Shown here piece after piece: positions 2,200 to 62,017 of a stretch of 64,000 bases of DNA. Numbering within the stretch: the stretch's first letter is position 1; every line of letters starts with the position of its first letter. Below the pieces are notes generated by a model, which worked only from the letters and a program-made list of their open reading frames with translations, searched no databases and was not told the origin of the DNA. The DNA is from Odontesthes bonariensis (lineage: Eukaryota; Chordata; Actinopteri; Atheriniformes; Atherinopsidae). The stretch covers positions 22,549,784 to 22,613,783 of the forward strand of contig NC_134526.1 of assembly GCF_027942865.1 (NCBI RefSeq), written 5' to 3'. Made by a program: the position numbers and the translations under genes.

Positions 2200-4170
2200 T
2201 TTCTTTTTCCTATGTAGTGAAAGACAGGAGATCCTCATGGAAATTAAAATGAACATGGAGAGGCGAGGACTCCTGTGAATTTTGGGACAAAGAAAGGTTT
2301 CACAAATTCTAAAGTGTGTTTGATATCATTTATATCATGTGATCAATGATTAAACCCATATTTAATCATTTTTCATACAGGTTCTGGTTTTGGATGGTCC
2401 AAATGAAAAGAAGAAAGAAAGCTCAGAGGAACTTTTTGAATTTTCAATGACCAAATAAAGTTTTCACAAATAATAAAATGTGTTTTAAAGACTCTGTACC
2501 CTCTTTAGAATAATTCCATCCAGATTTGAGCAGTCTAAGTAATGTAGTTTCCATACAGGACCCAGTTCAGGGTGATCAGAATACCAAAAAAGCAGTGAAA
2601 TGGCCCTGTTCTGTATTTTCACAAATCAGAAAAAGGTTTCACAAATCCCAAACAAGGTTTTAATGAATCTATAGCCTCTTTAGAATAATTCCATCCAGAT
2701 TTGAGCAGTCTAAGTAATGTAGTTTCCATACAGGACCCAGTTCAGGGTGATCAGAATACCAAAAAAGCAGTGAAATGGCCCTGTTCTGTATTTTCACAAA
2801 TCAGAAAAAGGTTTCACAAATCCCAAACAAGATTTTAATGAATCTACAACCTCTTTAGAATAATTCCATCCAGATTTGATCAGTGTAACTTTTGTAGTTT
2901 CCATACAGGACCTTGTTTTGGTCGATCAAAATGCAAAAAAAGCAGTGAAATGGCCCTGTTCTGTATTTTCACAAATCAGAAAAAGGTTTCACAAATCCCA
3001 AACAAGGTTTTAATGAATCTATAGCCTCTTTAGAATAATTCCATCCAGATTTGAGCAGTCTAAGTAATGTAGTTTCCATACAGGACCCAGTTCAGGGTGA
3101 TCAGAATTCCAAAAAAGCAGTGAATGGCCCTGTTCTGTATTTTCACAAATCAGAAAAAGGTTTCACAAATCCCAAACAAGGTTTTAATGAATCTATAGCC
3201 TCTTTAGAATAATTCCATCCAGATTTGAGCAGTCTAAGTAATGTAGTTTCCATACAGGACCCAGTTCTGGGTGATCAGAATACCAAAAAAGCAGTGAAAT
3301 GGCCCTGTTCTGTATTTTTACAAATCAGAAAAAGGTTTCACAAATCCCAAACAAGGTTTTAATGAATCTATAGCCTCTTTAGAATAATTATATCAAGATT
3401 TGAGCTGTCTAAGTAATATAGTTTCCATACAGGACCCAGTTCAGGGTGATCAGAATACCAAAAAAGCAGTGAAATGGCCCTGTTCTGTATTTTCACAAAT
3501 CAGAAAAAGGTTTCACAAATCCCAAACAAGGTTTTAATGAATCTATAGACTCTTTAGAATAATTCCATCCAGATTTGAGCAGTCTAAGTAATGTAGTTTC
3601 CATACAGGACCCAGTTCAGGGTGATCAGAATTCCAAAAAAGCAGTGAAATGGCCCTGTTCTGTATTTTCACAAATCAGAAAAAGGTTTCACAAATCCCAA
3701 ACAAGGTTTTAATGAATCTATAGCCTCTTTAGAATAATTCTATCCAGATTTGAGCAGTCTAAGTAATGTAGTTTCCATACAGGACCCAGTTCAGGGTGAT
3801 CAGAATTCCAAAAAAGCAGTGAAATGGCCCTGTTCTGTATTTTCACAAATCAGAAAAAGGTTTCACAAATCCCAAACAAGGTTTTAATGAATCTATAGCC
3901 TCTTTAGAATAATTCCATCCAGATTTGAGCTGTCTAAGTAATGTAGTTTCTATACAGGACCCAGTTCAGGGTGATCAGAATACCAAAAAAGCAGTGAATG
4001 GCTCTGTTCTGTATTTTCACAAATCAGAAAAAGGTTTCACAAATCCCAAACAAGATTTTAATGAATCTACAACCTCTTTAGAATAATTCCATCCAGATTT
4101 GATCAGTGTAACTTTTGTAGTTTCCATACAGGACCTTGTTTTGGTCGATCAAAATGCAAAAAAAGCAGTG
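2200..4170. repeat. Tandem array of ~175-bp satellite monomers
   Basis: The landmark CTCTTTAGAATAATT recurs at about 2501, 2676, 2851, 3026, 3200, 3375, 3550, 3725, 3900 and 4074, giving ten monomers of 174-175 bp. Two or three more diverged units lie upstream (landmark TTTCACAAAT near 2297, 2461 and 2636). Most monomers belong to one type. Those at 2851 and 4074 share a second type (GATCAGTGTAACTTTTG, GACCTTGTTTTGGTCGATC) and are exactly seven monomers apart. Each monomer carries a pyrimidine-ACAG motif resembling a splice acceptor. The period is not a multiple of three, so the array as a whole is not coding. Confidence 0.9.
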
Positions 4171-5950
4171 AAATGGCCCTTTATACCCACCCCTTTAATG
4201 CGCGAATCGGAGGCTGGCGAATCGGATGCCAACTTCAGCGTCGTGCGTGAACTCGTGTGTTTTTTACGCATTCCGTCGCGTGATCAACCAAAGGCTAATC
4301 GAGTCCCTGAAGGGCACTTCTATTTCCATCTGGCCGATTTAGTTCCATGGCAACAAAAGATAGAAAAACCTCAAAGTTGCAAACATGTCGTTTACTCTGA
4401 ATGAGCAATGATCCAAGTAACGGAGGTCTTATTCAATATCCATTCTTCATTCATCCGGAATATATTCAGAAAACTGAACTGAATCGTCCTCTTTTTTTTT
4501 TTTTTTTAATTCGTGTCCACTTTTAATTCGAATTTAGCCCACTCGCAAAATTCCACAATCGTACTTTTAAATTTTAAACTCAAATTTGAACATCCTGTTG
4601 CCACTTTATTTTAACTTTAATTTTAATTTTTTTTTTTTATCTTTCTTTTCGTAAGTGTATTTTGTTGCCAAGCACCAGACGGACAGCTTTTTCCATGTAT
4701 CCTAGGCCATGCCTATTGCAGCTGTGCATTGATCTAAATACTTTTATGGTATCTCCAGAAACAAGTGGTTATCTGCAAAGTAGTGAAGATGTAGATAAGT
4801 CCAATGTAAATTGTGGGTAGAAATGTTAATGAACTGTTTCTGTGATAGTGAAAATAGAAACAGTGAAGTAGGTAACTCCAAAATTACATAAGAAGCTGAA
4901 GAAACTTGCTAAAAAACCTTAGGCCTTTATGTAATCTGTGTCACAGGCTTTTTCCTCACAGTTGTCATTTTGACATAAAACAACAGATGCAGCAATCGCA
5001 ACACATCACTTTAAGCTCTAACGCTAATACTGGAGAATCTGGCCAAGTTGTTGCTTTTGGTTCCCTTCCAGGTTTGGGATGTAACATCAGTATCATAAAA
5101 ATAAATCTCCATGTGAGTCCTGCAGATGTACAGTCATACATGTGAATTTGTTGGGGCACACATAGGGCAGTTTCAGGACCATGAACGGGCATTACAAAAG
5201 TAAATGTACTTCAAAGAGAGTCAGAAGTGCTTCGCTTTAAGGTTCACAAACTTTGTTAATGTCTTCACAGGCTAACACCTGGGATTTCTGGTTATTTCAT
5301 GCCAAAATAGTCTAAACAGCCATATACATTTTTCACTGTTGGAATTTTGACTTATCAAACCACCTCAGCAAGCAGAAATCATTGGGGGACCTTCAGACCC
5401 CCCCTAAATGTTAGAGGCTTTGTCAATTTACTATCTGGGACTATCTGTGAATATTCACTGAATATTCTCTGATGGTGACAGCGTGAAGGAACCAGGGAAC
5501 TCAGGGAGCCATTCTTGAACATTGTGAAATAGTGAACCCCTGTGCACGACAGCAGGATGTGTCCAAAATTAAAAGCATGCGTCACTGAATTCCCCTGCAT
5601 ATACCCTGCTGCGACGGGCCAAAATGTCAGCTATAAAGAGGGTCTATTGGGTGTACAAGAGAAACTTTGAAATGTTGTTAATGTCGGAGAAGAAAGGAAG
5701 CTGATTTTGTTTCTAAATAAATGTAATAGGCTCTGATTTGCGAAAGATCAAATGCAAATGTTGCAAGCACTGTCTTTTTATAGTCTTTTCAGAGTCTTGA
5801 ATTAGAAGAAGTTGACAGTGTTGTACAAACTGAAAAGTTTTCTTTCCAGCAAAACGTGCGACATTGCACTGAAGCAGTAAAACCGACTTGTGTTGAGTGA
5901 GTTACTATCTGTAACTTGTCCCTCCTCGCCGCACCGAAAGCGGAACCAAA
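4171..5950. other. Intergenic: CpG-rich tail of the satellite, then AT-rich sequence
   Basis: At about 4175 the last monomer breaks into unrelated CpG-rich sequence (4190-4330) with repeated GCGAATCGGA words. An open frame of 101 codons (4099-4404) starts in the satellite and runs through this block; nothing in it is recognised. Beyond 4430 there are T-homopolymers (about 4490-4508 and 4628-4640) and AT-rich sequence without a convincing gene, leading into the ap5z1 promoter. Confidence 0.5.
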
Positions 5951-12000: not shown

Positions 12001-13208
12001 AGCTGCTTCAACGTGTCTAGTTCAAACTCTGGGCTCCACTATCTGACCGGAGTCAGTAGATCTCAGAGCTCTACTGGGTTTATACTCTGCTAGCATGTCA
12101 TTCATGTATTCTGGACCTAAACCGTTCCGTGATTTGTAGACGAGCAGCAGAACTTTAAAATCTATTCTGTATCTGACCGGGAGCCAGTGTAAAGACTTGA
12201 GAACTGGGGTGATGTGATCTGATCTCTTTGTTCTGGTTAAAACTCGAGCTGCAGCGTTCCGAATGAGCTGCAGCTGTTTGAGACTCTTTTGGGGGAGTCC
12301 AGTCAGAAGACCGTTACAGTAGTCAAGTCTGCTGGAAACGAAAGCATGAAGCACATGTAGATGATGTGTGGAGACTTCAGTTACTCCTCCTTTGAATTCC
12401 TCCCCCATCTCGTCCCTTCTTGCTGTGGGCCTGCAGGGTGTTCAGCTGCCACCTGCTGAGGCTGTGCAAGCTCCACCCCTCGCTGGTGGTGGACCAGTCT
12501 CACGAGCTGCTGGAGATCGCTGGGACCACAGCCAACGTCTACAGCAAAGAAGAAATCTACACCCACGTGGTAATTAAACAAATGTCAGGCTGTGTATTCA
12601 GTGACACTTGACGGGGAAATAGAATGTTCCGTCTTCTCTGGCCCTCAGGTGTGGGTGCTGGGAGAGTACCTTTCGGCGTCGTCCGACTCCCGCTGCTCCG
12701 TGAGGCTCATCACTTCCTGTTTCGAAGCGCTGGAGGCGGTGCTGTTTGAGATCACCTCGTCTGCACCGCCCCCTGGCGCAGTGTGCCCCGCCCCTAAAGT
12801 CATCACCTCTTTAATGAGCGCTCTCGCCAAGCTGGCATCGCGATCACATGACCTCATACCTCGGTAACTTAGCTTTGTTTTCCATTACCTTTAGTTCACT
12901 CTACAGTGCTCGATAAACAGCTGGAATGTAAGAGCGTGTTTCTGTCTGTTTTTAGGGTTTCTCTGTTCCTTTCCAAGCTGAGGACGGTAACGAGAGGCGG
13001 ATCGGTCGTCTGGTGCTCCGACGAAGAGGACCTCGCCGCCATCGTAACACGGGGGGAGGAGCTGTGGTCGCTGCTGAAAGCCCCCGGCGTGGCTCAGAGC
13101 GCCCTGACCCCGCCTCCCCACGTCACCACAGCGCGGTGGCACAGGGACACCAACGTGGCCATGCCGCTGCAACTACGACTCCTCACCAGCCTCACGCACT
13201 CACGGTGA
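6052..13208 (+). CDS. ap5z1: AP-5 complex subunit zeta-1
   Basis: This is the large zeta subunit of adaptor complex AP-5, which works with SPG11/SPG15 at late endosomes and lysosomes. Exons: 6052-6092, 6748-6885, 7153-7333, 7435-7573, 7697-7812, 7899-8073, 9272-9412, 9529-9566, 9766-9928, 10498-10676, 10773-10915, 11003-11121, 11225-11352, 11479-11576, 12437-12569, 12649-12863, 12956-13208. All junctions are GT-AG and the frame closes to 799 codons (human about 807). Recognisable blocks are [20 protein letters not shown] at the start, [56 protein letters not shown] and [12 protein letters not shown]. The protein is alpha-solenoid-like, with no signal peptide or membrane segment. The start was chosen because MYSHGSESL matches the family N-terminus. 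An in-frame extra exon is possible at 8313-8360. Identity is secure; the exact small exons are inferred. Confidence 0.95.
8313..8360 (+). CDS. ap5z1: Possible in-frame cassette exon of ap5z1
   Basis: In the 1.2-kb intron after the sixth exon, 48 bases lie between a good acceptor (TTTTCATCATCTCCAG) and a good donor (ATG|GTAAGA). The flanking exons join in phase 1, and 48 nt inserts 16 codons ([16 protein letters not shown], with the phase-1 G) without a stop or frame change. I do not recognise these residues in mammalian AP5Z1, so this may be a fish-specific or alternative exon, or chance. Confidence 0.4.
11690..12400 (-). mobile_element. 5'-truncated L2-like LINE in ap5z1 intron 14
   Basis: On the minus strand, 12408-12022 encodes the C-terminal reverse-transcriptase region of an L2/CR1-type non-LTR element. 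It contains [44 protein letters not shown] and KVLLLVYKS. It is followed (12021-11690) by the AT-rich 3' tail with the teleost-typical TTTATATAGCGCATTTCATA when read on plus. The reading frame is open through the retained part, so the copy is moderately young, but it lacks the endonuclease and most of the polymerase. It occupies most of the intron and ends about 40-70 bases before the next acceptor. Confidence 0.85.
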
Positions 13209-31457: not shown

Positions 31458-34400
31458 TTAAAAACATGTTAAAGTGGCATACATTTTGGCATCTGAAAGC
31501 TGGAGAAACCTGCTTCGTGTTCCATTTCGCTTTTGTTTTTACCTCGCCTCAAATCAACATATAAGAGAATGACACTGTGCAAACACCCCCCGCAGTGACA
31601 CTTAGTGTTTGCTTGCGTCCCTGCAGCTGACACGGAGGACGTGTGTATCGTGGAGCGTCTGTTCTCCAGCAGCCTCGTGGCCATCGTGAGCCTGAAGGCC
31701 CCCAGGAAGCTCAAAGTCTGCCACTTCAAGAAGGGAACTGAAATCTGCAACTACTCATATTCAAACACCATACTGGCTGTCAAACTCAACAGACAGGTAG
31801 GACAAGGAGGGGTGAAGAGTCTCTGCCTGGGTCAAAAAAATGTGTGTATTCGTAAAGCGGTCTTCGTGTCTCGGGAGAAAATAGTTTTGTTGACTCGGGA
31901 AGCGGTTGGTTTGTTTCAGTTGTGTTTGGCAGCAGTGCTGATGTTTCGTTTGCTCCCCTGCAGAGGCTGATAGTGTGCCTGGAGGAGTCACTTTACATCC
32001 ACAACATCAGAGACATGAAAGTGCTGCACACTATCAGAGAGACTCCCCCCAACCCCTCAGGTGAGTTGTAAGAATGCCGTGCCACCCACACCTAACAAAA
32101 ACGAAAGCCAGGAATTAAATGTTCAGAATGACAGAATGTTGCGCGTCTCAGCTCTGTGTCAGTCGTTGTTTGGCTTTCGGGCTGGACTTAAGTTTTAGAT
32201 CATTTGGATTTCCTTAGGTTTTATTTTTGTCCGTCTCTGTGCTTCTCTCTTCGCAGGACTCTGTGCCCTCTCCATCAGCAATGACAACTGTTACCTGGCC
32301 TACCCAGGCAGTGCCACAATAGGAGAAGTCCAGGTGTTCGACACAGTCAACCTGGTAGGTGACCTGACACAGAGAGGCGTTCTGCCCTACCTTTTATTTG
32401 ACATATGCTGAAACCTTTGCAGCAGCTTCTTCTCTGCCTTTCATACACCTTTTAATGTCCGTTAACAATAAGTCTGCGGTACAGCATCTCTGACTAGAGG
32501 ATCTTTTTGTCTTCTAGAGGGCAGCAAACATGATTCCAGCCCATGACAGCCCCTTAGCGGCTTTGGCCTTCGACGCAAGTGGAACCAAACTGGCCACAGC
32601 ATCGGAGAAGGTATTGTCTCATACTCTGGCCTGTTGTTCACGTAGTAGATAAAGGTCCCCGTGTTTGTCTCCTTCTTTAAAGTTGTCTCGTGTCTTTCGC
32701 TTCCTCCCAGGGCACAGTCATTCGCGTCTTCTCCATCCCAGAGGGACAGAAACTCTTTGAGTTTCGGCGGGGAGTTAAGAGGTGAAGGATTTAGCCATCG
32801 GATCGTTGGAAGTTTGGGTTTTACAGAAATGAAAGGGCTCTCACTGTGTGTGTGTGTCCCTGCATGTGTTTGGATGTGCTGCACAGTTGCGTTCACCAGC
32901 TCACTCTGTACTCGTGTGCTTCTCGTCTCAGGTGTGTGAGCATCTGTTCGTTGGCGTTCAGCATGGAGGGTCTTTACCTCTCCGCCTCCAGCAACACGGA
33001 GACGGTTCACATCTTCAAATTAGAGACGCAGAAGGAGAAGTATGTGTAAGTGCTGTTTGTTGTTGAAAATGAGCTCTGTCAAGCACATGGACCTACAGAG
33101 GACTTTGTATCCCCACATACACACACACCAAGTGCAGCGACTCACGGTCTGTTTGCGCGTTCAGGCCGGCGGAGGAGCCGACCACATGGGGAGGATACCT
33201 GGGGAAGGTCCTGATGGCGTCCACCACCTATCTGCCTTCGCAGGTCACGGAAATGTTCACACAGGGTAGAGCCTTCGCCACCGTGCGTCTGCCCTTCTGT
33301 GGGCATAAGAACATCTGCGCCTTAGCTGTGTAAGTATACACACACTCTCACACTCAGACAGGCAGAATAAAATTCATCAGACTACAGACGTGGGCTCCTG
33401 TCGAACGTTTAAAGCGAGATTGGCATTTAATCTTTGTTTTGTACACTTTTCGTTTGGAAAATCGAAAAGGACGCCCGTGCAAAGCGGTTATCAATGTCTT
33501 AAAAACTTTATTAGCATTTTAGGCGAATGCTCGTTCCAGTCATCCCCCGTGAAGGACATTTTTCTTGAAAGCAGCTTTTAAGGATTGATAGAAAGACAAA
33601 TTCAAAGCTCATTTTGACTGCAAAAGACCTTCAGGAAGCTGCACGATTATGGCCTTCATCAGAGGAAAACCCTTCCCATTAACTCACCACAGAACAACAG
33701 AAGTGTGAAAATAAACATGGAAAGAATTTCCCACCCGGGATATTTGCCAAAGCAAACGTCAAATATAATACATCCAGAGCTTTCAGGGTGCTCCCACAGC
33801 TTTGCTTTTTAAACTACGACAAAGATAAGAAAAGGAAAATGGCTTTAACTTTATAACTCATTGACAGAAGGGTAACTTTGAACATGTACTCCATATTCTA
33901 ATTTCTAGAATTGTCGGCTTAACTGTTTACCAGATTTAGTTAGTAATAAATCTGGCTTTCAAGAGCACTTGAGTCATTTTGTCTGCTGGTGTACCTTTGT
34001 CACTGTTAATCACGCCTGCGACCAGCTCTCGTTATTTATAACAAAAAAAATAAGAAATACGCTGCTTCTGCCGCTGTAAACTATGAATCAGTTCCTGCAG
34101 CCGGGTGCCTCTTCAGCCGAGCTGTGGTGGCGTAAGTTGGCCGGAAAAGTCTCGACAGCCGCTGCCCTTCCGTCAGTTTTGTGGCATCACTGTGCGAGTT
34201 TCAGTGGCTTAAACGACTCCATCTTTAAAAAAAAACGCACCGAGATGTTTGTACATCTCAAAACTTTGTTGTTTTTTTTAAATAGGATTCAGAAGATTCC
34301 CCGGCTTCTGGTGGCGGCGGCCGACGGGTACCTGTATCTGTACAACTTGGATCCACAGGAGGGAGGGGAGTGCACGCTCATGAAGCAGCACAGGTATAAC

Positions 34401-35489
34401 ACACACGTGGTAGATACAGTGCGTCACGTCAAAGTTAATGAAACAAACTAGGAACTGAGGCTGTGTTCGAAAACGCATACTACATACTAGCAAACTGCAT
34501 ACTTCCATTCTGCATATGGCATACTGATCGATCAGACAGTATGCAGAGCGTTTACCCACAATGCATTTCGCTCCTGCCCGAGCCGAAATCAGCCGGCCTG
34601 AAGCTGATTTCACTTAGGCTCTAAACTCTGTAAACTTTAGCAACATTTGAAACATTTTCAGACGAGAAAGTAGTCGTTTAGATCCCTAACGTGTTGAAAA
34701 TTTGACAAAATACCGGCTATTTACAATTTTGTTCCGACGAATTCGGCGCTACTAAAGCTAGCCGCAGTGAGCAACACACTTCCGGTATTTTCACAAAATA
34801 AAATACCCGTTGCCTTTTATCATAGGGAAAGCCATTACGATACAATTGGTGCTTTTGTTTTGAAAACAGGAAGTGAACCTACCCTCGTTGTAGCTAGCTT
34901 GAAACTGCCGTTTTGACAGGAAATTACGATCGGCGACGTCACGTTACGTTGCATCTTGGGTAGTTTGAGTATGAGAAGTAACCTCATGATGCATACCCAA
35001 CATTTCGGCGAATCTAGTATGCATCTGGGAACTTCTCGCTTACTAAAACTCACATACTAACTCAAAAAGTTTGTATGAGTAGTAGGAGAAGTATGCGGTT
35101 TCGAACACAGCCTGAGAGTTTCTGTTGCTGACCTCAGGTTAGACAGCACCGCTGACCCCCCCAGTGAAATCCTGGAGCAGGGGTCCCATGATCGCCCCCT
35201 TGTGGCTCAAACCTACAGTGCCGCTGTCACTAAAGGTAGGAGACCCGTTTACAAGTTTGGTAAAAAATGGTTTTTAGAAGTGAATGCGAGTGCTTTGACT
35301 CCAAATCCAACGTTTGACACGGATGCATACAGACTGTCAAGTTTTTTTTGGTTTGACTGCTGAACTTGTTTCCTAGGTTACTGCGAAGAACAGGGTGCCG
35401 TGGGAGGGGCGGGGTTAGAGGAGGACCTCAATGATTTGCGCCTGGAGGACGAGAACGAGCAGCCGCCACTCATCCTCGAAACTGACTGA
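30017..35489 (+). CDS. wipi2: WD repeat domain phosphoinositide-interacting protein 2
   Basis: A seven-bladed beta-propeller PROPPIN that binds PI3P on forming autophagosomes and recruits ATG16L1. Exons: 30017-30090, 30911-30993, 31627-31796, 31964-32060, 32257-32354, 32518-32610, 32711-32781, 32932-33039, 33165-33329, 34286-34393, 35138-35235, 35377-35489. The frame closes to 425 codons. The N-terminus [20 protein letters not shown] matches WIPI2. FRRG, the phosphoinositide-binding motif, is residues 223-226. R108 (KLNR108), reported in human WIPI2b as needed for ATG16L1 binding, is conserved. The tail ends [12 protein letters not shown]. The first two exons join directly, as in shorter human isoforms. 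The intron before exon 11 contains a 652-bp MITE. Polyadenylation candidates are AATAAA at 35933 and 36765. Confidence 0.97.
31408..31456. repeat. (TA)n-rich microsatellite
   Basis: TA repeats with interspersed CA units in wipi2 intron 2. Confidence 0.85.
34460..35111. mobile_element. MITE with GCTGTGTTCGAAA terminal inverted repeats
   Basis: The left end GCTGTGTTCGAAAACGCATA and the right end (reverse complement GCTGTGTTCGAAACCGCATA) form inverted repeats. They are flanked by CTGAG at 34455-34459 and 35112-35116 as an apparent 5-bp target duplication. Subterminal GTATG/CATAC words repeat in both halves. It is non-coding, about 652 bp, and lies in wipi2 intron 10, ending 26 bases before exon 11. 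Superfamily not assigned. Confidence 0.8.
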
Positions 35490-38400
35490 CTCAACTGATG
35501 GCTGTACTGACCAATCAGGGGGCTCCTCTGGTGCTGCTATAAACATGTGACACAAGGGGGGGGTGCCGGGACCGGATCAAAGATGGGAGGGGGTGGGGGG
35601 GGGCGTTGTCCAAGAACCTGCCTGTCAGTCAATCTGTGCGTTTTTCTGTCTACATATACGTCTATCTTCTTCTTCCCTCCTCCGCTCCCTTTTCCCTCAG
35701 TTTGGCCTGCGCAGGCCAATCTGGAGCTTTGCATGTACATGTGCCAACCGCTAAAAAAAAAATATGACTACATATGAGTGTGAGTGTGGTCAAAGAAAAT
35801 GTAGCTGTGCCTCCCGTTTTTGGACACACGAAACGCACTGTGTAAAATGAAAGCGACTGTGTAAGTGCCTCTCTGCTCCACCGTCTTGGCTTGTCCTGTC
35901 TGAAAGTGGGGAGGATCTCTTTTCATTGGCGAAATAAAAAATCAGCTGTCAGTTTGTCGGATCTCATTCGAACGCGTGCCCTCTTTCCCGAACCTCCATG
36001 TGCGTCCCACGCTGTCCCGCCAAGAGTCGAGTTGGAAATGAATTCGGAGGCTTTAGGCGTGAGAGCAGATGCGAATAAGACTGTGTGTTTGTGCTGAAGC
36101 TTAATTTGTGTGTGTGTGTGTGTGTGAGTGTGCTGGGCATGTACATCAGCAAAACACCTAGTAATTAGCCACCACTTGTCCCCGCTCACTTTTACCTCAT
36201 TCAAACAGAGGCTCAGTGGACCTTCCCGGCACCCCTCCCCCCTCCTCGGGGCCTGCACTCGTTGATTGATTTTCCGTCTCGGACATTATTTGATCGTTTT
36301 TAAAATAACTAATCATAACCAATGATGTGTCATGCGTATGAAAACATGCATGGTGTTGTTGACGTGGTACTGTGCCCATACATCACAGAGACATGTGGCT
36401 GGTGATGATGAGTTGAGGAAGGCGGTAAAATGTCTCTTGTTACTCCTCATCCTACTGTATCGCTACTCTGTATATTGCTAGTTGTGGCAAAATGTACCTT
36501 GCGCCCTGTTCTTAGGTTATCATTTCAAGTCGGCACTCTGGGAAAGTGGATGTTTGACCACGGAGTGAACCGTGGATTGTAATTTCATTGCTCCGGAGTT
36601 GAGGCGGAGCCTCGTCAACTGGTCCAGGATGCTGCATGATTCCCTATTAATCCTTAGGCGCCTGAGGGGGGCTGAAAAGGATTAGCTGTGGGATTTTTGG
36701 AGCGTCAGGCGTTTTCTAATAATTTTGTATAAAATGTGAAACATTCATCTGAAACTAAAATGAAAATAAATTCTGTATTGATGTACGCGACCTGTGCCTT
36801 TTCCCTGTCACATTTGCACCAGCGTTCTACTACCCCCTGTCACAGGACATACACTTTTGGGAACTTGAAAGTAAATCTATCAGTATTGATGTATCAGGAC
36901 ATCACTCGCCTGCAGCCACACCGCTGCTCACACATGGTTCTGTCACTCTTCTGGCTCCACTGAGCTGCCAGTTTGTGACAAACTAGTGTACTCTTATCTA
37001 GAACTGCTGCTGCAGTTTTTGGGACGAATCATAAAGAAAAGAAATAGGACATGGGTTCACTTTTTCACACCAATGTTTTTATGCATTCAGCACATATGCA
37101 GAGCTTCTGTAGATCTGTGGCGAGGTCCTCCGCCTTTTCCCTGCAGCCTCCGCTGGACCTCCTTCAGGCTGGCGGCTCCTCAGCGCAACCAATTTGTGCC
37201 AGGGGAAGAGTGGGAGGAGAGACGGAAGAGGAGAGGAGAGGAGATCGTGGGAATAGATTAAAAAGTTTCAGGACTGACTCATTTGTATTTATTTTTATAT
37301 GACTCACAAATATAAATCTGATTAACTTCCATTCCAGCAGTTATTAAGACTCGTGTTCTACATTTTTCAAGCTGAGGGCTGTAAGATGGCTCGGGAATGA
37401 CTCCAACCTTGTTCTGTGCATGAGTATCAGTACAACACTTATATTCACAGTCCTGTCTCTTTCCTTCAGCCTCCATTATCTTTATTTCAGCACATACACA
37501 CACACACACTCGGTTCTAATTTACCAACCCGCAATCCTCTCCTCACTCTGTCTTATGCAATGTTCATCACATTTGCCACGTTGCAGTGAAAATCACAATT
37601 GTGACCCAATCAAAGGTCAGAGGTTTATTAGAGATTTTTTTTTTACTGTTCATCCTCCATCAGCCTACAGTTGTTGAGACATTTCATATATGATTAAAAT
37701 GCGGGTTAAGCGACACTGGCAGAAGAGTCGGGACAACTCTGAGGGATTCGGCCTGTATGGAACACGATTGCCTGAGTGAAATTTAACATCCAAAGCCATC
37801 AGATTTTTCAGATATTCCAGCCTGCCGCCACGGTGAAATAAAAAATTCAAAGTTTAGTTCCGTCTTAGCATGACAAACATCTGCAATGACCGTTTGTGCC
37901 TGCTTCTTATCTGGTTGCCCTAATAAGAATAAGTGAAATCGTCTGTTAGATTTTAATGCAGAACTTTTGGTCCCGTAACTCAGACCTGGTGCTCTTTGAG
38001 ATCGCAGCTGAGCATTCAGCATCAAGTTTGGAGTTGAACACACGCACACTACAGGGGATCAGGCTCTGTTTGGACGGTAAAACCAGAGGATCACACACGG
38101 TGTGTTTTCTCATTTTGTCATCGTGTTAAATGAGAAATTCAGATGGAGACACTGATGTAGCTGAATTTATTTAATCCCCACTCTTGATGTTAATCTGCTT
38201 ACCCTGTTTCCAGAACCATCGGGCAGTTTTCTACACAAACCTTTTTATTTTTTTTTCCCAGAACAGACACAAGTTGGAAAGAAATGATCTTTTAGTCAAC
38301 CAGATTCCAACTGTCTTATATAGCGGTGGACAGATGAAATCCTGACTGTTAGCCCGTCGTGTCATTTAGGTGAAATGTCTTTGCTGGAGGAAGGTTTACA

Positions 38401-39097: not shown

Positions 39098-39415
39098 ATC
39101 AAATCAAATCAAATTTATTTGTATAGCACATTTCATGTACAAAACAATTCAAAGTGCTTTTAGATAAAATAAAAGCATTAAAAATACATAAAAGAATATA
39201 AAGAGAAACAAATAAAATAATTTCAATTAATTTAAAAACAAACAACAGTCAAGATAAATTAAAAGATATCGTGCAGATTTCATGCATAGACCTGGATTTA
39301 AAAATGTCTACATTTGGTGACAGTTTAATCTCCTCTGGCAGTTTGTTCCACTTGTTTGCAGCATAACAGCTAAATGCTGCTTCTCCATGTTTAGTCGGGA
39401 CTCTGGACTGGACCA
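39098..39415 (-). mobile_element. L2-like LINE 3' tail
   Basis: On plus it begins AATCAAATCAAATTTATTTG followed by TATAGCACATTTCATGTACA and ends with GCATAACAGCTAAATGCTGC. This closely parallels 11695-12005, the 3' end of the LINE in ap5z1. Only the non-coding tail is present. It is inserted inside the second MITE copy. Confidence 0.75.
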
Positions 39416-39466
39416 ACTAGCCGGACTACTTTCGTCAACACCAAAACGAGGCTGGAACTCGGCTCA

Positions 39467-40885
39467 CTTCATGCAAACTTCATGCAAACTCATCTCTTTG
39501 AACCGATGGAAAACACCAACCTTTTAGCACACAAACACACTGACATTGATCCACCATCTCCTTAAATTTGATCCTTAGAGTTCCTCTAAATTTAGCCTTG
39601 ATGATGAAGAGTTTGCTTTAAATTTCCTTGACAGAGCAGATCCTACTGGCTGTGATATCATTTCCAGCGTCATGTTAAATGGAGCATTTCTTGTTGAGTG
39701 TTTCAGCATTTTCTACAGCATAGCACTGTAATATCGTTCTCTCTTTCTGTGGGAAATGTGTGTGTGTGTGTGTGTGTATGTGTAAGCATCCCTATGTGGT
39801 TACCCTGTAGAAGTAGAAAACAGTTTGGAAGGAAGGGCCTTTCCTCTTTGAGGAGCAGGACCAGCAGGGGCCTGGGGGGACTTCTGGACTTCTTTTCCAC
39901 CCAGCTGTAGCCCACCTATGAGAAGTACAAACAGCTGAGCTGCACCTTTTTGTCACAAAGTCATAGAAAAACGTTCCACTACGCTTTCCTACTCAACCTT
40001 GCGCTCACATAAGCAGCCGTCTGAGTTGTTGGCGGAGTTCTTCACATATTTTGCTCGTGTAAAATGCCTGTTGCTGGGAGATTCCACCAGGGGGCACGCT
40101 AGCAAACTCTGACAATAAAGAACCTCAGGATTAGTTGAGATTGGTTGTAAATCCAGGATGTAAATAATGCACATAATTTAAAGCAGGTATATTCCCCGCC
40201 TAAAGGAGTTAATCTGGTTGAGTTTTGCTGGCAGAAGCCTTGTTTGAATGATGCGTCTCTCTGCTCATACCATGACTGCACAAACAAAGATGCAACACAG
40301 AGGGAAATAGAGGAGGAATCATGACATTTAGGTAAGTGGCAAACCAGTGCAGATATTAATGCAAAGAGCAGTAAAGAGGGAAGTGATTTTCAGGCCTTCA
40401 GCTCATAAAACCACGTCATTACATCAATGTGACAGTTCAAATCTCTGCTGCTCTTCTCAGTCACAACACACTTCAGTTCAGCTGGTATTACCGGCACAGA
40501 TCAGACATGATGTCACAACTAAGGTCATCGGAGGTCTGTTGCACAGCATGGCTCGAAGTGAACTCGTATAACGGCTACAATCGCACAGAGTGTAAGCTCC
40601 CTTTAGCTTCTTACAGAAGCCAGAGCGGGGAACTGCACCTGAAGGCATCCCTGAAGGGTTCAAACTTCTCAAGATCAAGTTCTTTTGGAATGTTATGAGA
40701 AAAAGGAGGAAGCCACAGAAGCTTGACCTTCACAGATACTCCCTTTTTTTCCCCTTTTAAATCTAGAAACATTATCTTTGCAAATAAAACACATTTTATG
40801 TATGTATACAGAATACTTTTTGATCTACTCCATTCACCCTCCACCGGCTAACACACATGCACATTCATGCATGCCTGCACACACA

Positions 40886-40936
<51 letters not shown>

Positions 40937-42335
40937 CACCAACTCAAAGCCCTTCTTCCTCCATGTACCCCACGAAAACCATAGTTTTCTAACTTGGTCA
41001 TCCTTGGACATCGCTTTAGCTCCACATTCAATCCATCCCACGGCTTCACTCCACATACAGAAATACAAAAACCTTTGAACGTCGTGTGGGCGCCAAGAGA
41101 TTCAAAATTCAAACCCCCTCTTTAAATCACAACCCCCATTTCTACTTGAAAACTCATTTGGAATATTACCAGAAAGCGGGTTGTTTTTGTGCCGTGAATG
41201 GACCAGATCCATACATTTTAATGCCTTAGATTTGTCAGTTTACAGTTGTTTGACTCAAATCACTACGTGTGCATTCTACAACATGGGAACCTTGTTTTGT
41301 GGGATTTTGAGTAATGCTTTTTTTTTAATCAATGGCTACAAGGAGGACTTATCTTCCAATGAAAACACTATCTGTAAATTGCCATGATAAAAAGAAAGGA
41401 GCATTGAGTTGAGTCACTTTGACAAACAAGAGGAAAATGATCATATTTAGAATATGGTCAAATGAAATCAAATCAAAAATCAAATAAAAGCTGCTGGTAT
41501 ATGTATACAGTTGAACTATGTTGTGTCTTTAAGTTGTTGTTGCCATATTTCAAAACAACTAGAAATCTAATTAGACTTTTTTCCCCCACGTGTAATCATG
41601 GCTGATCGCTGTTATTTGTTCTTCGTAGTTTAATTAGTCCTGGTTATGTAATGTGCAGAACTTTCATCAGATCTTATAGACTATAACATGCGTTCAGCTT
41701 GCAGCAGAGTTTCATGGCATCGCAGGTCTCCTGCAAAGTCTTCCCTCTCATTTCTGCTTGACTCGCTGAAATCAATGACTCTTCATCTCAACCTGTCTCA
41801 CTCGAGTCCCGGCTTCCCTCCAGAGTTCTATTGGCTGGTAGAGTTGGTAGAACATGTGACATCCACTCAGCAGCCTCCTGGGAAATGACTCTTGATTTGT
41901 CAAGCAGATCTAACGCCACAGAGATAAAAACACAGTCTGTAGGGCTCTATTCGTCTTAATTATTTTTCATTTTTGTTTCATTTTGTCTGGGCGTGTCTTC
42001 GCATCTCCTTGAAGGACTGATCCAAACTTATAGTAGAATAAATCAACACAAGTCTCAGTGTCAGCACCAGCATGATTAGTTGTCAGCCTAAAATGAATGC
42101 AGATCAGCTCCCCCTGAATTGAAGGGTAATTCTCACCGATCTTTGTGTAGCTGTCGGTTTTTGACTATTTTCAAATGATTACCTACAAAGACTGGAGGAG
42201 TTATTTTTGCCAAAAGCCTCCAGCACTGAGTTAGCCTGAATCATCCGGTCCTCCAGAAATCCCAGAGTAAAGAAGAAGAAGAATAGCTAAAGTGTTTACA
42301 ACAAGACGACAACAGATTAAATCAGGTCCGTGCTT
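39467..42335. other. Intergenic sequence, no gene recognised
   Basis: The sequence is AT-rich with a short GT run near 39759-39782 and a (CA)n run at 40878-40933. Remaining exons of the myosin relic would be expected here on the minus strand if the gene were intact, but no conserved myosin block was found. The open frames near 40.8-41.1 kb are by-products of the CA repeat. Confidence 0.5.
40878..40933. repeat. (CA)n microsatellite
   Basis: About 27 CA units, with one CT interruption near the left end. Confidence 0.95.
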
Positions 42336-42339
42336 CCAA

Positions 42340-43091
42340 ACACACACTTGCCCTGGAGTCTGGACAAGCTTTTTTTTAGTGTTTTCAGTCTTGCTCGCAC
42401 CAGATTCTCCACTATCTGAGAAGTACCGGAAACAACGAAGATGTTTATACAAGTGAGACATGAATCTCACATGGTTAGCCTGGTTGGAAGTAAACTAACA
42501 GATGTTGCGTCGTCTGGTCCTCGTGCTCTCTGATGACAGGAGATCAAAAGGGCAGAAAGAGAATAGAAACAGAGAGAGTGTGAGAGAGAAGGGAATAATT
42601 TCTGCTGATTTCCCTGCGAGCAGATCACAGGGCTGCTGATGTTCTCTGTCAGCGCTCTGAACAACACAGACAGCTGCCAGCTCTCCCCTGACGCTCCATA
42701 ATGACTTCAAAGTATTTTGCTACTCCCCGAGCAAGTCATCACACACCGCAGTCATCACACAGCTGCCCTCTGTCCACATGCAACCGTGCAACGACTTTCA
42801 AGCAACTTTTTCTCAATTCCCACCCCTCACTGACGTATGACTTATAATCATTTCTTTGCTCCCTCTGATCTTCAAAGCCCCCTGTATCGTTTTTTTTTTT
42901 CTCCTAATCATTCAGTAGCTCTGTTATCTGCAACCCTGCCATCGCTCTTTCCTCACCCATCATCGTGTCGTTGTAGGCATTGTCAGCGATGGCGAAGAGG
43001 TGCAGGGGAACCTCGCTGCATTTTTCCTCCCTGTACATCTGGGCCACTTTATAGATAGAAAGCCATTTGTATTGACTGACATGGTCCTTGA
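42340..43091 (-). pseudogene. myh16: Relic of a class II myosin heavy chain motor, probably myh16
   Basis: Three minus-strand exons fit the conserved vertebrate muscle-myosin structure. Exon 43091-42957 follows a TTTCTAG acceptor and reads QYKWLSIYKVAQMYREEKCS then EVPLHLFAIADNAYNDTMM, the family's VNPYKWLPVY...PPHIFAIADNAY block. It ends in phase 1 with donor GTGAGG. Exon 42527-42500 is exactly 28 nt (EHEDQTTQHL; family DREDQS-type) with donor GTTAGT. The exon from 42411 reads GESGASKTENTKK, the P-loop exon (family GESGAGKT). All three share one frame. Degeneration shows as the G-to-S change in the P-loop, loss of the PY context and residues in the first exon, and no further exons to the left. 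The assignment to myh16 rests on the head-to-head position with smurf1. The open frame continues upstream to 43332 with only weak resemblance to the myosin N-terminal domain. Confidence 0.7.
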
Positions 43092-43332: not shown

Positions 43333-44530
43333 TTTTATAAAGCAATCATGTTTCCTAAGTGGACGAAACTCCCCTTATCACTCAATCTTCCCTGTACCAA
43401 AAGCCCAACTGGAACACTTGATTTGGTTTATTCATAGCACCCAAGCGCTCCTCCTCTGAGGGAACCAGAAACATAAAACACTTAGAAAACAAAGTCACTT
43501 ACCAGCTCACCCACTGGCTTCTACAGATATAGGCTGAGCAATGGCCAATCAATCAGAAATGAGGGTGTTTAACTGGTAAGAAGATAAGTGGCTATCAGCT
43601 CAACAAGATGCTTGTCTCAGATACTCATTGATGTAGGCAGAGTTATGTGTGGGTACAGCTCTAAAAGCAGAGATTATCACGAGGTCTCGTCCCTCTGATG
43701 TGTCTGGCACTGGGGATTTGGGGATCCTTCAGTCCATTTTAGCTGTTCTGTGAACAGCTATCCCTCAGGCTAAATCCTATCTTTTTTTCATCACTCCTCA
43801 TTTCCCCTCTTCCAATTTACTGTGTCCACTATTAAGCAGGTGTCTATTGATCTAAGTGCACCCTATGGAAGTTAGGACGAGTGAGGCAACTTAAACTGAG
43901 ACCACTGATACAGTATGTGAGTGGGTCATTTCAGTTTCATAGAAATCTTATGAAACTGAAATATGTTCTTATACTTTTAGGCACAAATTTGAAAATTGAT
44001 CTCAATGTAAAGTGTCCTTAAAGTCCCCCCTCCATTAAAAAATAGATGCAATACAAGCTAAGAGAAGTTTGTGTGGGGTTAGCGAGCAGGCGTTAGCCGC
44101 TAGCTGCAGCTGGTGCGTGGAGATGTGGACAGATCCAGATTAGCATATTCACAGATCCCAATTTACCTAATGCCAATGTCAACTGCTTCAAAATGTGTCA
44201 TTTTGAGGAACAAAGATGAGGTTTGAGGCGATTAATAACTGCTGGAGTGTTGCTTTAATGCTTATTTGGTGAATAAATCAATACTTATTACTGTTACCAT
44301 CTATTTGTGGACATATCAGGGTAAGCATGTGATTTCCAACCCCCATGTAGAGTGGAAAGATGAGTAGACTGCTGACAGAGCTGACATCTGCAGTCCACAT
44401 GGCCACATATAAATGGGCCAAGTGGATTTGTCCCAAGTCACTTATATGATAAGAAGTAAGAATATTTATGTCCACTGAAAGTTATTGTGGTACTTTCACA
44501 TAAACTTCCCTGTTGCAAACATCAACATCA
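43333..44530. other. Intergenic sequence with a possible TTAA-flanked MITE
   Basis: Mostly AT-rich without genes. A block from about 44018 to 44260 is bounded by TTAA, with loosely inverted ends (TTAAAGTCCCCCCTCC and, in reverse complement, TTAAAGCAACACTCC). It looks like a short non-autonomous element. Confidence 0.4.

Positions 44531-47669: not shown

Positions 47670-62017
<14,348 letters not shown>

Follow-up and report, generated by a model that had tools for sequence, protein, structure and literature searches.

In a stretch of 64,000 nucleotides of Odontesthes bonariensis DNA (hereafter the window), we found, in the interval from wipi2 to smurf1, the minus-strand relic of a myosin heavy chain (MYH) gene. 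Its exons lie in order and carry lesions, no close copy of it appeared among the genome matches listed, and in one short alignment it fell outside the MYH7/7B group. Very probably, the relic is an old, unprocessed (intron-bearing) unitary pseudogene of MYH16 whose function was lost long ago. The orthology to MYH16 is the most likely interpretation because of the position of the relic and its deep branching.

Exons of the relic and their lesions

The initial annotation had described three minus-strand exons (of 135 nt, of 28 nt and with the P-loop) joined in a single frame, with the donors GTGAGG and GTTAGT, and all of these were present (Table 1). Exons 5, 6 and 7 share one open frame, ...YKWLSIYKVAQMYREEKCSEVPLHLFAIADNAYNDTMM-EHEDQTTQHL-GESGASKTENTKK, with the P-loop exon read from 42411. 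The 135-nt piece and its donor were thus confirmed, but 135 nt is probably not the true length of exon 5, since this exon has 157 nt in vertebrate MYH genes, the other copies in the same genome start it with TYSGLFC, and the 'ctag' once read as its acceptor lines up close to the TYSGL codons, which are eroded. Two residues are missing in frame from the exon 5 remnant and about 10 nt net are missing near its 5' end. By itself this piece matched PDB entries with E=3e-5 and the Pfam Myosin_head profile with E=7.6e-5 (21.6 bits, below the curated cutoff of 33.3 bits). The 156-aa open frame that runs across exon 5 means little, because longer stop-free frames exist in the window, where stop-to-stop frames of 204, 185, 169 and 158 aa were also counted.

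Table 1. Remnants of the myosin gene and exons or domains of its neighbours, by position in the window
Feature	Position	Strand	Remarks
wipi2 exon near its 3' end	34275..34400	+	WIPI2 E=2.4e-17
Possible rod exon piece, AAAVLDKSTLVCHKLAAQWSQKSDRTM	36933..37013	-	Collinear; E=0.20 over whole window
Probable 3' end of loop-2 exon, SKRKGPSFQTVFYFYR	39804..39851	-	GT donor at the site used by functional copies
Exon 10, LLDKSRVISQEAAEW then CHMFYQLYQ in another frame	41811..41909	-	Acceptor gttag kept; 3' end approximate
Exon 9, GELICIHFRLTTNHAGADTET	42050..42113	-	tblastn 42113-42051; exactly 64 nt, ag / gt at ends
Exon 8, GFLEDRMIQANSVLEAFG--KNNSSS	42187..42262	-	tblastn 42262-42191; end placed by inference from sequence
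Exon 7, P-loop, GESGASKTENTKKKLVQ...	42346..42411	-	G-to-S in P-loop; 3' end uncertain
Exon 6, HEDQTTQH and split codons	42500..42527	-	Exactly 28 nt, donor GTTAGT
Exon 5 remnant, VSQYKWLSIY--KVAQMYREEKCSEVPLHLFAIADNAYNDTMM	42957..43091	-	135 nt, donor GTGAGG; 5' boundary uncertain
Doubtful piece of first coding exon, PSEEERLGAMNKP	43424..43498	-	Shuffle tests disagree among queries; left uncounted
smurf1 exon 1	47670..47723	+	smurf1 extends rightward from here
smurf1 C2 domain	55753-55878	+	Domain match
smurf1 WW domains	57721-57795 and 58196-58285	+	Domain match
smurf1 HECT domain	60186-61309	+	Domain match

The absence of downstream exons, as first reported, proved to be wrong: exons 8, 9 and 10 follow directly, and further down there are probably also a rod piece and the last part of the loop-2 exon. 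The downstream exons were sought by tblastn using an MYH7 sequence as query, with which exon 10, taken singly, was matched from 41907 with E=4.9. Chained together, five collinear tblastn pieces reached 144.4 bits, whereas none of 200 dinucleotide-shuffled versions of the window exceeded 78.5 bits. Preserving the sizes of 28 and 64 nt, the exons run collinearly and in order along a single strand, and they correspond to a class II muscle-type motor with the exon pattern of vertebrate MYH genes. All the pieces joined by hand matched PDB entries with a value of 2.8e-24, obtained with pieces that had been chosen for their myosin likeness.

Two fainter pieces lie further downstream, and we regard their belonging to the relic as likely rather than certain. 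The functional copies of the same genome end the loop-2 exon at the same point as the relic (SFQTVSALHR); when the interval was shuffled 300 times, the score of this piece was reached 4 times with the sarcomeric locus L001 as query and 14 times with MYH7, and the scored stretch extends into a CA repeat. The score of the rod piece was reached once in 300 such shuffles, the piece was absent among the matches listed when the Drosophila rod was the query, and a rival of similar score (26.9 bits, at 52185 on the plus strand) was a K/E-rich stretch that we took for simple sequence. The presence of these weak pieces suggests erosion along the whole length of the gene, from smurf1 to wipi2, rather than a sharp cut after the P-loop. 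Upstream, the score of the putative first coding exon was reached in none of 1000 shuffles against MYH7 and in 220, 325 and 637 of 1000 against three other myosins; the open frame at 43374-43093, compared with exon 3 of MYH7B, was matched in 7 of 1000 shuffles and, with the other three myosins, in 66, 282 and 373 of 1000, and it was also left uncounted.

Lesions were found in several of the exons. Exon 8 has 76 nt up to its inferred ancestral donor instead of 93: switch I, where NAKTVRNDNSSRF has become KNNSSS, has lost about 18 nt, and there is one extra nucleotide; the acceptor of this exon is tg instead of ag and was therefore lost. Exon 10 bears a net 2-nt deletion, after which the ancestral reading resumes in another frame, and the P-loop of exon 7 shows a change from G to S. 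The gaps were placed by alignment to two functional copies, and their exact positions differ between those two. With an altered P-loop, a partly deleted switch I and a broken frame, the relic can make no working motor, and most likely it now does nothing as a motor.

Eighteen of the 54 columns that are invariant over the class II myosins compared were changed in the relic, while five functional genes left out in turn as a control showed 0, 0, 2, 2 and 2 changes in 54-56 invariant columns; in a decayed MYH7B-type locus (L055) 3 of 38 were changed. If neutral, the 18 changes correspond to about 0.18 substitutions per site, which at teleost rates would put the loss, roughly, tens of millions of years ago. 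The loss was thus old, not the fairly recent one initially proposed, since a third of the invariant positions compared in the motor had changed, switch I was partly deleted and frame-breaking indels were present in exons 8 and 10. These same changes spoke against the proposal that the sequence was still under some constraint. Exons 5-7 in an open frame and with their donors kept could also be expected of a truncated gene whose short product or RNA is still under constraint, but we consider this very unlikely, given that the P-loop and switch I, the frame and one acceptor are broken, that a third of the invariant residues differ, and that long stop-free runs are common in the window. An assembly error in an intact gene is hardly credible, because the lesions and substitutions are spread across six exons and the contig measures 34 Mb.

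Affinity of the relic and search for a parent gene

The identity of the relic was 51-57% to 20 sarcomeric loci of the same genome (L001, L009-L027), 58.5% to MYH7, 56.9% to Drosophila Mhc, 53% to MYH9 and 52% to MYH7B, so that by plain identity MYH7 was slightly higher than Drosophila Mhc. When the joined pieces were compared with PDB entries, the order was Drosophila muscle (88.9 bits), scallop (86.8 bits), vertebrate cardiac (85.6 bits) and smooth muscle myosin (77.4 bits), the lead of invertebrate over vertebrate muscle myosin being only 3 bits. In the tree, the relic, Drosophila Mhc and MYH9 were separated from MYH7, MYH7B and 19 loci of the genome with a UFBoot of 99, the relic branching before the other vertebrate sarcomeric MYHs compared, on a long branch and in a short alignment in which its row was aligned by hand and four reference myosins were included. 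Within its side of the split, the relic paired with the non-muscle MYH9 (UFBoot 80, FastTree 0.455). Taken together, the sequence comparisons would set the relic apart from the MYH7/7B group; by PDB score, not by plain identity, it was a little nearer to the muscle myosins of invertebrates. Among vertebrate MYH genes, MYH16 has been called the most distantly related one (PMC6402096), and the deep branching of the relic fits this most distant of the vertebrate sarcomeric myosins.

At 23 columns diagnostic of sarcomeric or non-muscle myosins, the relic had the sarcomeric state in 11, the non-muscle state in 6 and neither in 6, and four of the six non-muscle states are also those of Drosophila muscle myosin. 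The columns were therefore not those of a non-muscle or smooth muscle myosin II, and we rejected a non-muscle origin on the basis of the 11 sarcomeric versus 6 non-muscle states, although the tree nonetheless paired the relic weakly with MYH9. A recent duplication of a canonical MYH gene was also rejected, given the identities of 51-57% to the 20 sarcomeric loci and the lack of a near match genome-wide among those listed.

A search of the 945-Mb assembly with exon 5 of the relic gave matches at 36 places at least, of which the relic itself scored 88.1 bits and the next one 32.6 bits. Thirty of the 35 other places listed were assigned to a type: 20 sarcomeric, one MYH7B-type, one decayed MYH7B-type, seven non-muscle or smooth (one of them typed by another exon only) and one unconventional; the remaining five (18.8-24.7 bits) were left out of the typing. 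With exons 8-10 joined there were at least five matches, three being the relic, one a sarcomeric gene and one of 20.5 bits that was taken as chance. No close parent copy of the relic was found among the genome matches listed for exon 5. A parent copy, whose presence nearby was among the observations that the initial annotation had named as speaking against its reading, was thus not seen at the 30 of 35 other matches typed, nor was a functional MYH16-like copy, the five low-scoring places being outside this count. As no working copy was found elsewhere among the genome matches listed, and the introns of the relic are kept and its lesions disabling, as in a unitary unprocessed pseudogene, the gene seems to have been lost in O. 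bonariensis, independently of the human loss.

Alternatively, the relic may have arisen as a duplicate of some other myosin II gene of this fish (fast, slow, MYH7B or non-muscle), a duplicate that decayed and lies next to smurf1 by chance. The many tandem MYH copies of the genome, of which one (L019) is itself degenerate, the decayed MYH7B-type copy L055 and the weak pairing with MYH9 in the tree all speak for such an origin, but the 20 sarcomeric loci are about equally distant and there is no obvious parent. Moreover, the MYH7/7B-group genes compared do not have the states TENTKK and RVISQ, and the states KWL, LED, IHF and RVISQ do not occur in the non-muscle genes compared. We consider this origin improbable.

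Other myosin loci with unusual features were observed during the search. L055 (C3:12513200-12516500, plus strand) is a second decayed MYH gene, of the MYH7B type, with separated exons and in-frame stops, and its P-loop (GASKT) is altered in the same way as that of the relic. L019 (C26:12843000-12849000) belongs to a tandem MYH cluster; it has a degenerate P-loop (GEKGAGR) and an altered switch I, and is perhaps a young pseudogene. L001 (C29:880438-882465, minus strand) is a sarcomeric MYH gene, intronless and retrogene-like, with its motor in one uninterrupted 1978-aa open frame; a literature search on an intronless vmhc found no paper.

Neighbourhood of the relic and its chromosome

The gene to the right of the relic was identified as smurf1 by its match to SMURF1 (3.1e-52, versus 9e-48 for SMURF2), and the peptide encoded by its exon 1 is presumably the SMURF1 N-terminus. 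To the left, the wipi2 frame reading PPLILETD, which we take to be the C-terminus of WIPI2, stops at 35489. The relic is therefore a divergent neighbour of smurf1, as MYH16 is of SMURF1 in human. The position "beside" SMURF1 given for human MYH16 in the initial annotation is to be taken loosely, since KPNA7 lies between the two genes. The initial view of a decayed sarcomeric-type myosin divergent to smurf1 was thus supported, with an MYH16 orthologue as its best explanation.

Along contig C26 we found an MYH11-type gene (L053) at 3.33 Mb, sarcomeric genes at 6.5 and 12.8 Mb, the relic at 22.59 Mb, an MYH10-type gene (L059) at 24.31 Mb and an MYH9-type gene (L035) at 25.1 Mb, and further genes of all three non-muscle types were carried by C4. 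The type names of L035, L053 and L059 are assumed from human motifs. In Sebastes schlegelii, chromosome 13 bears MYH9b, MYH10l, MYH11b, two tandem MYH clusters and an MYH16 of 1920 aa, and chromosome 5 bears MYH9a, MYH10 and MYH11a (PMC8228858, Tables 1 and 2). Because the Sebastes MYH16 shares its chromosome with MYH9b, MYH10l and MYH11b, MYH16 is expected on C26, where the relic sits.

Scans of the window gave no Rfam family at the gathering threshold and no tRNA. A tandem array of a 175-bp unit (9.7 copies, 94% matches) occupies positions 2482-4180. The minus-strand open frames at 12025-12441 and 39249-39416 resemble, by a motif, the tail of a LINE reverse transcriptase; the second of them sits within the eroded myosin gene.

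Comparison with known myosin losses

According to the explanation that we favour, MYH16, an ancient gene for the sarcomeric heavy chain of masticatory myosin, would have been on the minus strand in its ancestral divergent orientation to smurf1, and would have eroded once its function was lost. Motor exons 5-10 are still readable, the loop-2 exon and a rod exon are only faintly left, and the remaining gene would have been deleted or have passed beyond recognition. Relaxed selection on a jaw-specific myosin may have caused the loss, and the jaw muscles of O. bonariensis would presumably run on other MYH genes.

The relic shares with the human MYH16 pseudogene the loss of the masticatory myosin and the divergent orientation to SMURF1. 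For the human gene, however, 42 exons are predicted along 68 kb, and a single 2-nt deletion in exon 18 turned it into a pseudogene (PMC6402096), whereas the fish relic has six clear exons and two faint ones and would represent an independent loss. Losses of MYH16 have been described in anteaters, armadillos, pangolins and the echidna (PMC12906968); they have in common with the relic a repeated unitary loss with several lesions, but they concern ant-eaters with reduced chewing and not a fish. The sarcomeric gene MYH14 is also called MYH7b. In medaka, MYH14 was lost while its intronic miR-499 survives (PMC3716903). This was also the whole loss of an ancient sarcomeric MYH gene in a teleost, although of a different gene, and the medaka locus keeps miR-499, unlike the window of the relic with its negative Rfam scan. 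In S. schlegelii (PMC8228858) MYH16 has the same chromosomal company (MYH9b, MYH10l and MYH11b) and a 1920-aa coding sequence in place of a relic.

The kind of event is thus already known, from the repeated losses of MYH16 in mammals (PMC12906968) and the medaka loss of another ancient MYH gene (PMC3716903), and the new part would be the fish case of MYH16 loss. No mention of a fish MYH16 pseudogene was found in the titles and abstract openings of the open-access papers listed, but Fig. 1B of PMC8228858, which marks MYH losses among teleosts, may already include that of MYH16.

MYH16 is considered the oldest vertebrate sarcomeric myosin and has been connected with forceful closing of the jaw (PMC6402096); the human loss and that in ant-eating mammals have been discussed in published work (PMC6402096, PMC12906968). 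A loss of MYH16 in a fish, at a fixed site beside smurf1, makes it possible to ask independently, by comparing related fishes, whether the gene is lost in step with feeding mode. We suggest, only tentatively, that the masticatory myosin was lost deep in the lineage of this fish, independently of mammals, and that together with the loss at L055 it might reflect a clade-wide shift of ancient myosins in fish muscle, which could be dated by shared lesions.
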